Origin: Lysobacter silvisoli | GTDB lineage: Bacteria > Pseudomonadota > Gammaproteobacteria > Xanthomonadales > Xanthomonadaceae | Direction of reading: 5' to 3' | Assembly: GCF_003382365.1 (NCBI RefSeq) | Contig: NZ_QTSU01000001.1 | Coordinates: 1,984,001 to 2,048,000, forward strand | DNA length: 64,000 nt | Shown here: positions 15,116-20,728 of the stretch, piece by piece | How positions within the stretch are numbered: the first letter of the stretch is position 1 | Layout of the letters: every line of letters starts with the position of its first letter | Position numbers and translations under genes: made by a program | The notes under the pieces: generated by a model | The model's input: only the letters and a program-made list of their open reading frames with translations | Database searches by the model: none | What the model was told of the DNA's origin: nothing

Positions 15116-15412
15116 CTAGCGCTCGATCAGAATCAGCTTGCCGGTCTTGGGATCGCGATACACCTGCCCCACCGCCTCATAGCCGGCGCCGGCCTGTTGC
15201 TCGCCCTGCAACGGGCGCTCGATCGTGCGGCCGCGTTCGACCGGCGCCGGCACGCGCTGCTGCGCGACCGCGCCGATCGCCGCCAACAGGCCGCAGGCGA
15301 ACACCAGCATCACGTCGACCAGGTTGACCAAGCTGGCGCGCGGGTCCTCGTCGTCGTGGTCGAAGCGGGTGCGCAGGCGGGCGGCCGCGCGGCTGCGGCG
15401 CGGCGGGCTCAT
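15116..15412 (-). CDS. DUF2149 protein, ExbD-like single-pass membrane partner
   Basis: A 98-residue protein. A basic cytoplasmic N-terminus precedes one membrane helix, LVNLVDVMLVFACGLLAAIGAV (about residues 29-50). The LVDVMLVF core matches the helix of ExbD/TolR, where the Asp carries protons. The rest is a short polar domain (RDPKTGKLILIER at the end). Its ATG overlaps the stop of the ExbB-like gene (ATGA at 15409-15412), and it is the last gene of the cobalamin-riboswitch operon. DUF2149 proteins are known neighbours of CobN-like genes. The ExbD role is inferred from the helix and context. Confidence 0.85.
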   Translation of the reverse strand: MSPPRRSRAAARLRTRFDHDDEDPRASLVNLVDVMLVFACGLLAAIGAVAQQRVPAPVERGRTIERPLQGEQQAGAGYEAVGQVYRDPKTGKLILIER

Positions 15413-15852
15413 GCGGCGGCCTCCATGCGTTCCAGCAGTTCCTCGTACCAGCGCTTGCGCAGCCGGCCGATCCACAGGCCGGCGATGCCGGCCAGCAGGC
15501 CCAGCACGGTGGCGTCGAAGGCCACGGTGACCGCGCTGGCCAGCTGCGCCGGATCGCCCTGTCCCAGCGCGGCCAGACCCGGGCCCAGCGGAATGATGGT
15601 GGCCATCAGGCCCAGCATCGGCGGCACCCGCGCGAGCAGGTCGCAACGCTCGATGCGGCGGCGCGCCAGCCGCGCCACCGCCTCGATGTCGCCGCTGCGC
15701 TGCAGCCGGCGCAGACCCAGCCAGCGCTCGCCCAGGGCCAGGCCGGCCTCGACCAGGGCCAATGCGCAGGCGGCCAGCAGTATCGCCAGCACCGCCGGCA
15801 GCAGCAGCGCGATCAGCCGGTGCAGGGTGTCGAAATGGATCCAGCCTTCCAT
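15409..15852 (-). CDS. MotA/TolQ/ExbB-type proton channel protein
   Basis: A 147-residue inner-membrane protein with three helices. The first is LIALLLPAVLAILLAACALALVEAGLAL near residues 13-40; after a basic cytoplasmic loop (RRRIERCDLLARVPP) come PMLGLMATIIPLGPGLAAL and SAVTVAFDATVLGLLAGIAGLWIG. The last two match the conserved ExbB/TolQ pair that forms the proton path. It is shorter than E. coli ExbB. It begins 15 bases after the CobN-like stop and overlaps DUF2149, so all three should be made together as an energised complex. Confidence 0.88.
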   Translation of the reverse strand: MEGWIHFDTLHRLIALLLPAVLAILLAACALALVEAGLALGERWLGLRRLQRSGDIEAVARLARRRIERCDLLARVPPMLGLMATIIPLGPGLAALGQGDPAQLASAVTVAFDATVLGLLAGIAGLWIGRLRKRWYEELLERMEAAA

Positions 15853-15867
15853 CGGGTGCGGCCTCGT

Positions 15868-18800
15868 CTAGGACTGCGAATCGGCGCTCGCCGGCGACGG
15901 CCGGCGGCGTGCGGTGGGTGCGGCCAGGCCGCGGCGCAGGCCGAAGCCCAGCAGGATCAGCGCCAGCAGCGCGAGCGCGGCGGCGGGCAGCGGATGGCGG
16001 CGGATCAGCGCCTGCGGCGCCAGGCGCAGCAGTTCGCTGGCGCGCTCGGGTGGCGTTGCAGGTGCGGCCGGCGGCGTTGACGGCTGGGCAGACGCCGCGC
16101 GTGCGGCGGCGGCCGGCGCAGACGGCGTGCTCCGCGCGGATTCGGCTTGCGGCGGCGCTTGCGCCAAGGCCTCGCGTGCGCGCTGCGGCGCACCCAGCGC
16201 ATACGTGGACACCGCGCCGCGTTCGCCGCGCGCGCGCGCCAGCACTTCCTGCAAGCGCGCACGTGCCGCCGGCGCCAGGCGCGGCTGCAACCAGGCCCAC
16301 ATCGGATGGTCGGGCGCGGCGTGGCCGCTGCCGGGCAGACCGTTGCGCGCGACCAGCTCGGCCAGTTCGCCGCCGAGCTTGGCGACGTTGGCGTCGCTGG
16401 TGGACCAGTAACCCTTGTGCGCGGCCACCAGCATCAGCGCCAGCATGTGCGCCTTGGCGTGCTGCGAATGGCCCTTGGACAGGAACTCGTTCACGCCCAG
16501 GCCGTGGCGGTCGTCCAGGTAGACGCGCTGCACCTCGTCCCAGGCCCAGCCGCGGATCAGGTCCGGCCGGGTCACCTCCCAGCCCCACAGGTTCTCCAGG
16601 AATTCCTGGCTGATGGTGCGCGCGCCGGCGTAGTCGTGGCGCATCAGCGGGCGGATCCAGGCGGGGTTGAGATAACGCCCGCGGAACTCGCGCAGCAGCG
16701 CCGCCTGCAGCGGTTCCACGTCGGCGCGCTCGGCGTCGACGTTGTACAGCACCTGCGCCTGCGGCACGCGGCCGGTCAGGGTTTCCACCGCCAGCGACAG
16801 GCCGCCGAAATAGTCGAAGGCGTCGTTGTTGTCGAGCAGGCCGTACAGATGCGAGGCGCGGCCGTGGTAGCTGCGCTCCACGCCGCGCAAGCCGGTGGCG
16901 AAGGCCTGGTGCGCGGGCGTGCCTTCGGCGTCCAGGCCGTAGGCGTGACCCATGCGGTTGAGGTAGGCGCGGCCGATCTGGGCGCGTTCGCGCCAGGCGC
17001 CGGAGCGTTCGGTCAGCCGGTTCACGCCGGCGCCGTAAGCGCCGGGCGCATCGCCGTATACGCGCCAGGCCGCTTCGCGCCCCGCCGCTTCGTCGGCCAG
17101 GCCTTGCGCGCGCAAGGCATCCACGCGCTGCAGCCATTGACGCGCCACGCCGTTGTCGGCGATCGCCTCCTTGCCCTGCTCGAACTGTTCGCCCAACGGC
17201 GCCAATGCGGCGTCCAACGCGGCGGCCAGATCCGGGCGCTGCGCGCGCAGGCTGTGCGCGCTGGAGGCGAGCGCCAGACGTCCGCCGCGGTCCAGCAGCA
17301 ACACCAGATTCGGATACAGATCGCGGAACAGGCCGGAGGTGGTGACCAGCACGTCGCGGCGCGGCTGGCCCGGCGGCATCGGCCGCAGTTCCAGGCCCTG
17401 GACGATGCCGCGCGCGTTCCAGCGCGGCTGCACGCCCATCAAGGCCAGGGCGAAGCCGACCATCACGCCTTCGTCGCGCACCGCGTCGGAGGCCCACAGC
17501 ACCACGCCTTCGCTACCGCTGCGCGCCGCGCCGCTGGCGAGCACGCGCTCGGCCTGCTGCGCGCCCAGGCGCTGGGCCAACGGCGTGGGCAGCACGTCGC
17601 CGTCCAGGCCGTGGAAGTTGCGGCCGGTGGGCAGCGCCTCGGGCGCGCGCAAGGGATCGTTGCCCTTGCCCGGCAGCACGTAGCCGCCTTCCAAACCATG
17701 CAGCAGCGCGGCCATCTCCGCCGGCGGCGACGCCTGCAGCTTGGCGCGCAGGGCATCGGCCTCGCCCAGTTCGCGCATCGACTCGAGCATGGTCCGCAGC
17801 TGGGTGTCGTCCCAGGCCTGGCCGAACACGTGCAGGCCGTGCGGCATGAACTTTTCCTGCAACTTGGTCAGGTAGTGGCCGATCTCGTGCGCGAGCAGAT
17901 CGTCGTCGGCCTGCTCGAAACCGATGCCGCGCACCTGCAGCACATCGGCCATGCTCGCTTCCAGTTCGGCGCGCAGCTGCAGCGCTTCGACTTGTTCGCG
18001 CATCTCGCTGGCGGCCTGCGCGCGCAGCGGCTCGCTGCTGCTGCTTTCGAAGCTCTCCACCAACTGGCGCAGGCGCAGCAGGCGGTCGTACAGCGGCGTG
18101 GCCGCCAGCGGCGGGGTGAGGTGATCCACGATCACCGCCAGACCGCGGCGCTTGGCCTGGGTGCCCTCGCCCACGCCATCGACGATGTAGGGATAGACAC
18201 CGGGCACGTCGCCGGCGATCAGGCGCGAGTAGTCGTCGCTGGCCAGACCCACGGCCTTGCCGGGCAGGAATTCGTAAGTGGAATGGCGGCCGACGTGGAC
18301 GATCACGTCGGCGCCGAACACGTCGCGCAGCCAGTGGTAATAGGCCAGGTACTGGTGCGGCGGCAGGATCTGGGTGTTGGCGTGCAGCAGTTCCTCATCC
18401 ACCTCCCAACCGCGCGGCGGCTGCGGGCCGATGAACACGTTGCCCAGGCGCAGGCCCGGGATCACCACCGCGCCGTCGTGCACCATCACCTTGCCCGGCG
18501 CCGGGCCCCAGCCACGCAGGCCGGGCACCTGCAAGGCCTGCAGCGAGGCTTGCACGCGCCCGGCTTCGGCGCAGGCGGCATCGGCCGCGGCGTCCTGGCC
18601 GCGCAGGCAGCGCAGGTGCGCGTCGATCAGTTGACGGAACTGCGCCAGCGCGGCGTCGCGTGCGCGATGGTCGACGCCTTCGAGCAGGTGCAGCAGTTCG
18701 CGCTCGGCATCGCGCACGCGGCGTTCGCCCAGCTCGAGCTCCTGCGCCTGGCGCGCGAGCGCGACCTGCGCGCGCAGGCGCGCGAGCGGCCCGTCGCTGA

Positions 18801-20286
18801 CTTCGCCACGCACGCCCTCGGGCAGACCGGCGAACCAGCGCCGGTAGTCGTCGCCGGACAGCGTGGTCACCTGCTGGGCCATGGCCGCGAGTTCGCCGCC
18901 GTCCTCGGGCGTGTTCACGCCTTCGCGCATCATCCGGTCCAGCAGCAGCGCGGGCGTGGCCGGCAGATCGTCCACGCGGTACCCCTGCGCGCGCATCGCG
19001 CTGAGGATGCCGTGCAGCGAAGCCGGCACGTCCAGGTTGTCGGCGCCGATGTTCTGCCGCCCGGGCGGATGGTTGTAGTAGATCACCGCCACCTTGCGCT
19101 GCGCCGGCGCTTTCTCGCGCAGGCGGCGCCAGCGCTGCGCGCGTTCGACCAGGGACTGCATCTCCTGGGTCAGCGGTTGCGGGCGTTGCAGGCGCACGCC
19201 GGTCAGCGCATCGATGCTGGCGGGCCCGGCGGCGGCCAGCACCAGCGGTTGGCTGGCGCCCTGCAGCTCGGACATGGCCACGCGGTACTGCACGCTGGAC
19301 GCGGGCAGGCCGTCGCCGGACAAACGCCATTGCGCTTCGGTGCGGTCGAGCACGCGGATGGCCTTGAACACCGGCACGTCCAGCTCGGCGATCGCGGTGC
19401 TGGCGGCGTCGCGGCCCTCGGCGGCGCCGACCACGAAGTCCTGCAGCACCACCACCGCGGCCAGCGGGCGCGCGCCCGCGAGCGCACGCAGGTCCTGCAC
19501 CGCGCGCAGCGAGGCTTCGCCCCAGCGCGCGTAAACGCCCAGGCAGTCCAAGCCCGCACGCTCGGCTTGCGCACACAGCGCATCGCCGGTGGCGACGTCG
19601 GCATTGTTGAGATCGAGCACCGCGAGCAAGGGGCGTTCGTCCGGCGCAACCGCCGTCACGCTACGGCCGCGTTGGCGCAGCACCCGGTCGGGTTGCGGTT
19701 CCGGTGCCGGCACCGCACCGCCCTCCAGCAGGAAGCGCAGCGCGCGTTGCAGGTTGCGGCCGCCGCCTTCGCGCCACAGCGCGCGCACCTCCAGCCATTC
19801 GCGCGCGAAAGGATCGGCCTGTGCACGCGCGAGCAGCGCCGGCAGCGGCGTTTCCTGCGTCAGCTGGGTCAGCTCGGTGGCGTTGAACGCGCCCAGGCCG
19901 CGGCGGTCGCGGTAGCTGGCCAGGGCCAGGCCGGCTTCGCCATGGAAGGCGTACAGGCGCTTGGGCCCCTGCCCGCGCCGGTGCAGGGCGGTGGCGGCTT
20001 CGCGCAGGCGCACGCCTTGCTCGCCGAACAGCGCGACCGCGATCACCGCGTCGCTGCCGGCGACCAGCTCGCGCAACTGTGCGCGGTCCAGTTCCTGCAG
20101 TTGCTGCGGCGTGCGCAGGATTATGCGGTCGCCCGGCCGCGCGGCCAGCACTTCGCGCGCGGCCTCGGCGGTTTCCGGCGCGGCGCGCTCGGACACCACG
20201 CCCAGCAGCGTGGCCGCCTGCGCGTGCATCGAAGCGCAGCAGAGCAGCGCCGCCGCCCACAGCGCCCGCCAATTCCTGCGCGCCAT
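15868..20286 (-). CDS. cobN: CobN/BchH-like chelatase large subunit, exported and membrane-anchored
   Basis: About 1472 residues, larger than standard CobN (near 1250-1280). ATG at 20286 gives a signal peptide, MARRNWRALWAAALLCCASMHAQA, so the body should be periplasmic. CobN/BchH landmarks are YYNHPPGRQNIGADNLDVPASL, HVGRHSTYEFLPGKAVGLASDDYSRL and GLLDNNDAFDYFGGLSLAVETL. The C-terminus has an Ala/Pro-rich linker and one helix, LPAAALALLALILLGFGLRR, then a basic tail. Classical CobN is cytosolic and inserts cobalt with the ATPases CobS and CobT; neither is nearby. Here the partners are an ExbB-like channel and DUF2149. A cobalamin riboswitch precedes the gene. The reaction is uncertain: metal insertion, removal or corrinoid uptake are all possible. 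Confidence 0.9.
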   Translation of the reverse strand: MARRNWRALWAAALLCCASMHAQAATLLGVVSERAAPETAEAAREVLAARPGDRIILRTPQQLQELDRAQLRELVAGSDAVIAVALFGEQGVRLREAATALHRRGQGPKRLYAFHGEAGLALASYRDRRGLGAFNATELTQLTQETPLPALLARAQADPFAREWLEVRALWREGGGRNLQRALRFLLEGGAVPAPEPQPDRVLRQRGRSVTAVAPDERPLLAVLDLNNADVATGDALCAQAERAGLDCLGVYARWGEASLRAVQDLRALAGARPLAAVVVLQDFVVGAAEGRDAASTAIAELDVPVFKAIRVLDRTEAQWRLSGDGLPASSVQYRVAMSELQGASQPLVLAAAGPASIDALTGVRLQRPQPLTQEMQSLVERAQRWRRLREKAPAQRKVAVIYYNHPPGRQNIGADNLDVPASLHGILSAMRAQGYRVDDLPATPALLLDRMMREGVNTPEDGGELAAMAQQVTTLSGDDYRRWFAGLPEGVRGEVSDGPLARLRAQVALARQAQELELGERRVRDAERELLHLLEGVDHRARDAALAQFRQLIDAHLRCLRGQDAAADAACAEAGRVQASLQALQVPGLRGWGPAPGKVMVHDGAVVIPGLRLGNVFIGPQPPRGWEVDEELLHANTQILPPHQYLAYYHWLRDVFGADVIVHVGRHSTYEFLPGKAVGLASDDYSRLIAGDVPGVYPYIVDGVGEGTQAKRRGLAVIVDHLTPPLAATPLYDRLLRLRQLVESFESSSSEPLRAQAASEMREQVEALQLRAELEASMADVLQVRGIGFEQADDDLLAHEIGHYLTKLQEKFMPHGLHVFGQAWDDTQLRTMLESMRELGEADALRAKLQASPPAEMAALLHGLEGGYVLPGKGNDPLRAPEALPTGRNFHGLDGDVLPTPLAQRLGAQQAERVLASGAARSGSEGVVLWASDAVRDEGVMVGFALALMGVQPRWNARGIVQGLELRPMPPGQPRRDVLVTTSGLFRDLYPNLVLLLDRGGRLALASSAHSLRAQRPDLAAALDAALAPLGEQFEQGKEAIADNGVARQWLQRVDALRAQGLADEAAGREAAWRVYGDAPGAYGAGVNRLTERSGAWRERAQIGRAYLNRMGHAYGLDAEGTPAHQAFATGLRGVERSYHGRASHLYGLLDNNDAFDYFGGLSLAVETLTGRVPQAQVLYNVDAERADVEPLQAALLREFRGRYLNPAWIRPLMRHDYAGARTISQEFLENLWGWEVTRPDLIRGWAWDEVQRVYLDDRHGLGVNEFLSKGHSQHAKAHMLALMLVAAHKGYWSTSDANVAKLGGELAELVARNGLPGSGHAAPDHPMWAWLQPRLAPAARARLQEVLARARGERGAVSTYALGAPQRAREALAQAPPQAESARSTPSAPAAAARAASAQPSTPPAAPATPPERASELLRLAPQALIRRHPLPAAALALLALILLGFGLRRGLAAPTARRRPSPASADSQS

Positions 20287-20454
20287 ACGCGCGCCACTTG
20301 CCTTCACCGCACACCGCATCGACGACCTCGCCCCCGCACGCCCTGTGCGGACCGGATGGAAGGGGCGGACGTAGCGAAGGCAAAACCGCACGGAGCCGGC
20401 GCCGGACGGGCGCGAGCGCGCGCGACGTCGCCCTCCGCAACGTCCACCGCGTAC

Positions 20455-20660
20455 GCATCGGCCGGTCTCCGGGCTTGCGAGTGCCGGGGAATCCCGGCGG
20501 CATCGGCGCCTTCCCGGAACCATGGTTCCAGTGGCGGTGTGCCGATGCTTTGCTCGCTCACCGTTGCAGGGGCAGCGCCGGACTGATTCGCCTGGTCGAG
20601 GCGAACGCACCGGCTTCCCGTTCAACCGCGACCGCCGGAACGGCGGGCGCGGCACCAGAT
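20455..20660 (-). promoter_or_regulatory. cobalamin (adenosylcobalamin-type) riboswitch upstream of cobN
   Basis: Read on the minus strand, conserved blocks appear in the right order: AACGGGAAGCCGGTG near 20625-20607, the B12-box core CTGCCCCTGCAACGGTGAG at 20575-20557, a CCACTGG element near 20530, GGGAAGG near 20515, and the closing AAGCCCGGAGACCGGCC to about 20460. It lies 170 bases before the cobN start, so vitamin B12 should shut off the whole cobN-exbB-DUF2149 operon. The exact ends and the expression platform were not folded. Confidence 0.92.
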
Positions 20661-20728
20661 GCAAAGCGCGCGCAATCTAGCACAGGCGCGCGCGCGGCGT
20701 CCGCGCGGGCGGTCGCGCCAGGGCGCGG

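Follow-up and report, generated by a model that had tools for sequence, protein, structure and literature searches.

A cobalamin-riboswitch operon of Lysobacter silvisoli joins an apparently exported CobN-like protein to an ExbB/DUF2149 pair that may act as its motor

What does an ExbB-type channel do beside a chelatase-family protein that appears to lie outside the cytoplasm? The question is raised by an operon on the minus strand of a 64,000-nucleotide stretch of the Lysobacter silvisoli genome (contig NZ_QTSU01000001.1, positions 1,984,001 to 2,048,000; ‘the window’ below means this whole stretch), in which a cobalamin (vitamin B12) riboswitch is followed by cobN, exbB and a DUF2149 gene, the three genes being called the triad here. 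An earlier note on this DNA had proposed a chelatase-like machine on the periplasmic side, driven by the proton gradient instead of ATP. Judged by sequence, the locus is real and conserved and belongs to a known family, within which it forms a separate proteobacterial branch with predicted B12 regulation; ExbB/DUF2149 probably powers CobN rather than TonB.

The CobN-like protein (Table 1) matched Pfam CobN-Mg_chel at 826 bits, with the match in three stretches, and stayed under the cut-off of all nine CobN/BchH families listed by NCBIfam (best score 582.3 bits vs. 1619). Its relatives in PDB were CobN (9uk9, 1.5e-107), ChlH (4zhj, 2.9e-99) and HmuS (9d26, 6.9e-93). The N-terminus, MARRNWRALWAAALLCCASMHAQA, resembles a signal peptide by hydropathy and by eye (no signal-peptide program was used), residues 1432-1450 reach a hydropathy of 2.25 over 19 residues with basic residues after them, and the protein reads as exported and C-terminally anchored, as the earlier note had described it. 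By eye, a GAGG precedes the alternative cobN start, ATG 20319.

The two partner proteins, previously called an ExbB/TolQ-like channel and a DUF2149 protein, both scored above their Pfam cut-offs, and their reading frames share 4 nt. The DUF2149 protein of the window was missed by a looser genome search and lay above the gathering cut-off in a direct scan. Its single helix contains the acidic motif LVDVMLVF, its short tail is conserved, and the helix Asp was identical in 38/38 triad sequences, window included. The proposed match to ExbD held for the helix, where hhalign against the genome's own ExbD/TolR aligned 21 columns (probability 36.8%, E 3.6e-4), and not for the rest of the protein, where nothing aligned; the operon locus was absent from the matches listed when the genome was searched for the ExbD family. 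On these alignments DUF2149 resembles ExbD in the helix alone and has no ExbD-like periplasmic part. The ExbB protein gave no match in PDB by phmmer at 0.1.

Table 1. Features of the operon, with positions counted within the window.
Feature	Position	Strand	Evidence or remark
Cobalamin riboswitch aptamer RF00174, operon 5' leader	20443..20675	-	85.9 bits, gathering 31.5, model 1-189 (full)
CobN-like class I chelatase-family protein, 1472 aa	15868..20286	-	Start ATG 20286; alternative ATG 20319
Likely signal peptide of CobN-like protein	20215..20286	-	By eye and hydropathy
His equivalent to HmuS His538, within VHVGRHSTYEFLPGK	18283..18285	-	Alignment; position hand-counted
Asp in place of HmuS His1209, within LYGLLDNNDAFDYFGG	16822..16824	-	Alignment; position hand-counted
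Likely C-terminal membrane anchor of CobN-like protein, residues 1432-1450	15937..15993	-	Hydropathy
ExbB/TolQ/MotA-family channel protein, 147 aa, three hydrophobic segments	15409..15852	-	Pfam MotA_ExbB 37.7 bits, cut-off 22.9
DUF2149 (PF09919) protein, 98 aa	15116..15412	-	Pfam DUF2149 35.3 bits, cut-off 27.1

B12 control of the operon is predicted from the RF00174 match ahead of it, where the earlier note had placed a cobalamin riboswitch (its limit at 20660 covers the operon and cuts 15 nt off the riboswitch), and from related loci. A pattern scan of a species-genome collection returned 52 stretches, 40 of them relatives, mainly from Methylophilaceae, Oxalobacteraceae and Zoogloeaceae/Rhodocyclales, and also from Lysobacter and Marinobacterium. 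In these, exbB followed cobN at 38/40 loci and DUF2149 was present at 37/40, the missing ones being cut by contig ends. An RF00174 riboswitch lay upstream on the same strand at 14/14 loci tested (13 of the 40 and a Marinobacter M3C plasmid); at seven it directly preceded cobN, and at the remaining seven it stood ahead of the operon or of the operon's receptor gene. All nine Methylophilaceae loci had btuB, cobO and cbiA ahead of cobN-exbB-DUF2149; at two Rhodocyclales loci btuB and cobO came before the triad and cbiA after it. A PepSY_TM protein (L060:15150-16586, 43.3 bits) is encoded after the triad and a receptor gene in Massilia timonae, and might reduce the cofactor at the membrane as it enters.

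For the alignment, tree and topology counts, four loci with cut or broken CobN (L057, L065, L068 and L071) were left out; in L071 (Massilia sp. H-1) the triad CobN is split over many frames, either as a decayed gene or through poor assembly. The tree was built by a quick method, and HmuS, BchH, Runella and Diaphorobacter sit on long branches in it. It contained a tight triad clade of 38 rows, Marinobacter M3C included (support 100), which is the one grouping relied on here; a branch with support 99 also separated all motor-linked CobN from the other rows, a split that the long branches may distort. When the genomes of 24 relatives were searched whole, triad CobN was found in 24/24, a second full CobN in 6 and a short extra fragment in G170. 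The six second copies all lie within a receptor-CobN-ExbB-DUF2149 array and are of the Runella/HmuS-like branch, hence no AAA-type CobN was seen in the 24 genomes. Six loci of Lysobacteraceae relatives (L121-L126) carry a second, HmuS-like array of the same composition, with a COG0523/CobW-like gene near two of them that is reminiscent of the zinc-regulated PA1922-25. Of 149 genomes of the family, the Lysobacter genome itself counted, 10 gave a CobN match and 9 a DUF2149 match, and 7 gave both (Fisher P = 1.5e-8); after addition of two Lysobacter with a divergent DUF2149 missed at first, 9 had both (P = 7e-12).

In the cytosolic relatives CobNST and ChlHID the large subunit works with ATP-driven AAA+/VWA partners, and CobNST is part of de novo synthesis. 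Topology and partner genes were compared across the two groups. A terminal hydrophobic anchor was found in 36/37 triad CobN, and also in those of Runella, Diaphorobacter and Bacteroides finegoldii, all with ExbB/DUF2149 adjoining; it was found in 0/12 of a comparison set made up of seven CobN with AAA+/VWA neighbours, four ring-cluster CobN and one BchH. All of 17 further motor-linked CobN end hydrophobic, two of them weakly (1.27 and 1.30), no better than the highest hydropathy inside an AAA/ring protein (1.27, at a non-terminal place). The CobN frame of L039 has no C-terminal anchor; btuB and cbiA are also split there, and a draft error may explain it. One plasmid search gave matches in 159 records, 16 neighbourhoods of which were read, and seven more were taken from two further plasmid searches; CobN lay within about 4 kb in 10/11 plasmid records with a DUF2149 match, and on a Paracoccus alcaliphilus plasmid with such a match no CobN was seen nearby. 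By these counts ExbB/DUF2149 goes with anchored CobN and not with CobN of the AAA+/VWA type, and the idea that a proton-driven pair stands in place of the ATPase gains comparative support, an AAA+/VWA pair being found beside the cytosolic relatives.

Other records were noted alongside. The Marinobacter sp. M3C plasmid (L072, 2101-15048) carries a riboswitch-led btuB-btuFCD-cbiA-cobN-cobO-cobQ-bluB operon. A Runella slithyformis plasmid (L073, 2116-12833) encodes a receptor, a urease-accessory-type protein, ExbB, DUF2149 and CobN amid hypF/hypC/hypD/hypE, and this gene context suggests a nickel-related cargo for the Runella branch. Among phage records there were two distant CobN matches.

The active site was compared with that of HmuS, which strips iron from heme in the Bacteroidota HmuS-HmuU-HmuV system and loses its activity with His538 (PMC12583661; published work is cited throughout from the excerpts available). 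The equivalent of His538 is His, and that of Glu577 is kept, in 37/37 triad rows. At the heme ligands Met79 and His254 of the head/neck interface, the triad has 0/37 Met and 0/37 His, the N-terminal alignment being less sure. The place of His1209 is Asp in 37/37 triad rows and in 9/11 sampled AAA/ring CobN, and His in the HmuS and BchH rows, a Synechocystis ChlH alignment likewise giving His; the triad motif here is LYGLxDNNDAFDYxGG, where HmuS has LSLDHxxEFMGG with His1209. For the methionine-rich insertion of HmuS, the maximum number of Met per 60 residues, a crude measure, was 4 here and 7 in B. finegoldii HmuS.

The Lysobacter genome (4.54 Mb, 99.99% complete) has one CobN and no second; the closest named relative of this protein is from Lysobacter antibioticus HS124 (80% identical over its best segment; genome G090, same genus group). 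Four cobalamin riboswitches were found, the operon under study having one. The second leads a btuB operon that also contains genes for two small membrane proteins together with cobO, cbiA, cobQ and cobT (intervening genes by eye), and the other two were assigned by eye to a putative class I ribonucleotide reductase gene and a second btuB-like gene. The two small membrane proteins, between btuB and cobO (L008:12234-13455), have no Pfam/NCBIfam match, and one of them matches the solved cobalamin transporter 8c7p (1.8e-42). With this protein in the btuB-cobO operon and a FecCD permease in L044, the triad was judged unlikely to be the inner-membrane importer. As for the de novo corrin genes to which the earlier note had pointed, only two TP-methylase genes are present, read as CysG and RsmI, so the corrin ring is not makeable by known routes, and CobN as the cobalt-insertion step of de novo synthesis was rejected here. 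As for the absence of CobS and CobT, noted earlier, no CobS was seen among the candidates examined (of 22 AAA_5 matches, six read as Clp/MoxR/Lon by eye and three of these six scanned with NCBIfam); the genome-wide check for CobS was partial, and CobT was not searched. Three further MotA_ExbB loci each lie beside ExbD-type genes. The idea that CbiA is retained on account of CobN was rejected, CbiA being present in 24/149 family genomes and the triad among these only in G000 and G090; G001, a CbiA-positive family genome, has an HmuS-like CobN.

The 24 relatives differ in ring genes, with six or more TP methylases in 6, five in one and two to four in 17. In Zoogloea dura the triad is followed by a CbiM gene and then by a corrin-ring cluster, the one ring cluster tested with profiles, which was of the early-cobalt kind: CbiD, CbiE/T, CbiL, CbiH and CbiF scored above cut-off, and the CbiX-like and CbiG-type proteins below it. 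A role of CobN in de novo cobalt insertion was considered unlikely in this species, given the CbiX-like, CbiD and CbiG-type genes of the cluster. Ring genes likewise lie beside the triad in another Zoogloea (G153).

That CobN is the client of ExbB/DUF2149 is argued from four observations. A Trichlorobacter plasmid (L130) has receptor-DUF2162-ExbB-DUF2149-CobN, followed by a separate ExbB-ExbD-TonB set and another receptor. In Comamonadaceae OTU4NAUVB1 an ExbB-DUF2149-CobN set lies in 15.1 kb of sequence where no receptor is annotated and six receptor queries matched nothing. The likeness of DUF2149 to ExbD is confined to the helix, as above. Methanosarcina acetivorans, an archaeon without an outer membrane, gave matches to CobN, MotA_ExbB and DUF2149 and none to ExbD in the control lines of the genome searches. 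Full-text searches, covering titles and partial abstracts with subscription papers mostly outside, found no published proposal that ExbB/DUF2149 powers CobN.

We regard it as an evenly balanced matter whether the triad is an inner-membrane corrinoid-acquisition machine, in which an ExbB/DUF2149 proton motor acts on periplasmic CobN. Such a machine would be expressed at low B12; ExbB and DUF2149 would form a stator-like proton motor acting on CobN in the periplasm and would take over the role of the AAA+ partners of the cytosolic relatives, CobS/CobT or ChlI/ChlD. The motor would force CobN through a cycle of binding a macrocycle, bending it, inserting or removing the metal, and letting the macrocycle go. 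A TonB-dependent receptor would supply the substrate, a corrinoid; an importer of the inner membrane (BtuM-like here) would take up the product, which would then reach CobO and CbiA. The chemistry is the least certain part: cobalt insertion into incomplete or metal-free corrins, and the binding, remodelling and hand-over of intact corrinoids, are two tentative options of equal weight, cobalt removal is unlikely, and something else would be a long shot. In a wider form, which we hold to be possible with the balance tilting slightly against it, ExbB/DUF2149 would be an unrecognised proton-driven stator motor with a class I tetrapyrrole chelatase as its client, the proton gradient replacing the AAA+ ATPase; the module would be reused for heme, corrinoids and, from context only, zinc- and nickel-related cargoes, with a separate CobN branch and a separate regulator for each cargo, and the papers that treat HmuU/HmuV and PA1924 as energisers of TonB would be mistaken on this point.

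Several observations weigh against a proton-driven corrinoid machine or narrow its reach. Most loci came from one pattern scan, which favours close relatives. Within the genus the triad was found in 2/6 members vs. CbiA in 6/6, so it is an accessory gene set and no obligatory salvage step. The clearest exception to the linkage is G052, where ExbB and DUF2149 (L120, 6043-10430) occur and about 6 kb around them contain no CobN; in G142 a weak DUF2149 match comes without CobN, and G007, a 72% complete genome, has a CobN fragment without DUF2149. The Marinobacter M3C CobN, of the triad clade, has a signal peptide, no anchor and no exbB or DUF2149 in its annotated operon. In Zoogloea the triad adjoins the early-cobalt ring cluster, in which cobalt insertion would fall to a cytosolic CbiX-like protein. 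Runella and Diaphorobacter, with gene contexts other than B12, share the Asp at the second active-site place, so the residue argues against the heme type more than for corrin. The CobN, ExbB-type and DUF2149 proteins of Methanosarcina are known from genome-wide matches and were not seen as neighbours. Finally, purified HmuS acts on heme with NADH and without HmuU/HmuV (PMC12583661, excerpts), so a motor is not strictly needed for HmuS; an effect of HmuT, HmuU and HmuV on HmuS is left possible in PMC13227078.

The most serious competitor, possible in our view though rather doubtful, is that ExbB/DUF2149 is a dedicated TonB energiser for corrinoid receptors and that the periplasmic CobN merely binds corrinoid after import. 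HmuU/HmuV and PA1924 were assigned to TonB-dependent transport in this way (PMC10100974, PMC4542158), and the ExbB family match, the ExbD-like helix and a receptor match (six receptor queries) in the fetched flanks of 26/40 loci agree with it. Against this, the flanks of 14/40 loci gave no receptor match (the six queries miss some, and some flanks are short), there is no receptor near the OTU4NAUVB1 genes, and the Trichlorobacter operon holds ExbB/DUF2149 in addition to a complete ExbB-ExbD-TonB. DUF2149 lacks the ExbD-like periplasmic part, the Lysobacter genome has other ExbB/ExbD-type pairs, and Methanosarcina acetivorans has CobN, MotA_ExbB and DUF2149 but not ExbD.

If CobN instead took cobalt from corrinoids or cobalt tetrapyrroles in the periplasm, with a cobalt importer to follow, the triad would be a cobalt-scavenging de-chelatase. 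Cobalt is very hard to remove from a corrin, and with two TP-methylase genes in Lysobacter and two to four in 17/24 relatives, free cobalt would not restore B12 in these bacteria. HmuS sets a precedent with iron (PMC12583661), PA1922-25 is zinc-regulated, CbiM and the corrin-ring cluster come directly after the triad in Zoogloea dura, and the Runella core lies beside an annotated urease accessory protein amid hydrogenase-maturation genes; on balance we think cobalt scavenging improbable. A heme de-chelatase of the HmuS type, under B12 control by chance, would account for the homology to HmuS (6.9e-93) and for the same partner genes and topology. Met79 and His254 are absent and His1209 is replaced in 37/37 rows, the triad is surrounded by the B12 riboswitch and corrinoid genes, and no HmuY or HmuT-type gene was seen in the window operon, all of which makes this explanation very improbable indeed.

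The known tasks of ExbB-family motors are transport across the outer membrane, envelope integrity and motility. Should ExbB/DUF2149 power a chelatase, metal-cofactor chemistry would join this list as a new function, and the energy supply of exported CobN-like proteins would be explained without ATP or an AAA+ partner. The annotations ‘cobaltochelatase CobN’ and ‘TonB energiser’ on such operons would then mislead. For B12 biology, the triad suggests that bacteria unable to build the ring have a corrinoid step in the periplasm that has gone unrecognised.

The arrangement is not without precedent: the HmuS-HmuU-HmuV architecture, the BtuS family and riboswitch-led Hmu-like operons are already published. 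On this comparison the architecture is known, and the proteobacterial loci with predicted B12 regulation are a distinct branch of it. The nearest precedent is the HmuS-HmuT-HmuU-HmuV hmu operon of Bacteroidota (PMC12583661, PMC10100974, PMC10434189). Like it (B. finegoldii, L074), the Lysobacter operon combines a CobN-like protein, apparently exported and anchored, with an ExbB-type and a DUF2149 protein; unlike it, the Lysobacter operon stands behind a B12 riboswitch, whereas hmu is iron/heme regulated and has HmuY, HmuR and HmuT, and the Lysobacter CobN is missing the Met79/His254 ligands and the LSLDHxxEFMGG motif of HmuS. The same architecture under a cobalamin riboswitch is described for Hmu-like operons of Bacteroides fragilis, for which a role in cobalamin metabolism has been suggested (PMC10100974), and for BtuS (BtuS1/BtuS2), an exported protein proposed as a third type of CobN-like protein (PMC6460266); those loci are from Bacteroidota, and were compared by published description, not by sequence.

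In Pseudomonas aeruginosa, PA1922-PA1925 likewise unites receptor, CobN-like, ExbB/ExbD-type and DUF2149 genes in one operon, but under Zur/zinc regulation (PMC4542158, PMC9431628, PMC13083405) where Lysobacter has a B12 riboswitch. The Trichlorobacter (Geobacter) lovleyi plasmid cobN cluster shares ExbB-DUF2149-CobN near cobamide genes and differs in its order, exbB-DUF2149-cobN, and in the second, canonical ExbB-ExbD-TonB that follows; its authors noted the lack of CobS/CobT and, in the excerpts available, interpreted the exbB/exbD/tonB genes as transport only (PMC3403914). With CobNST and ChlHID the Lysobacter protein shares a homologous large subunit and, with 9/11 of the CobN sampled, the Asp at the second active-site place. 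Those large subunits have no terminal anchor, whereas the Lysobacter CobN is predicted to be exported and anchored.

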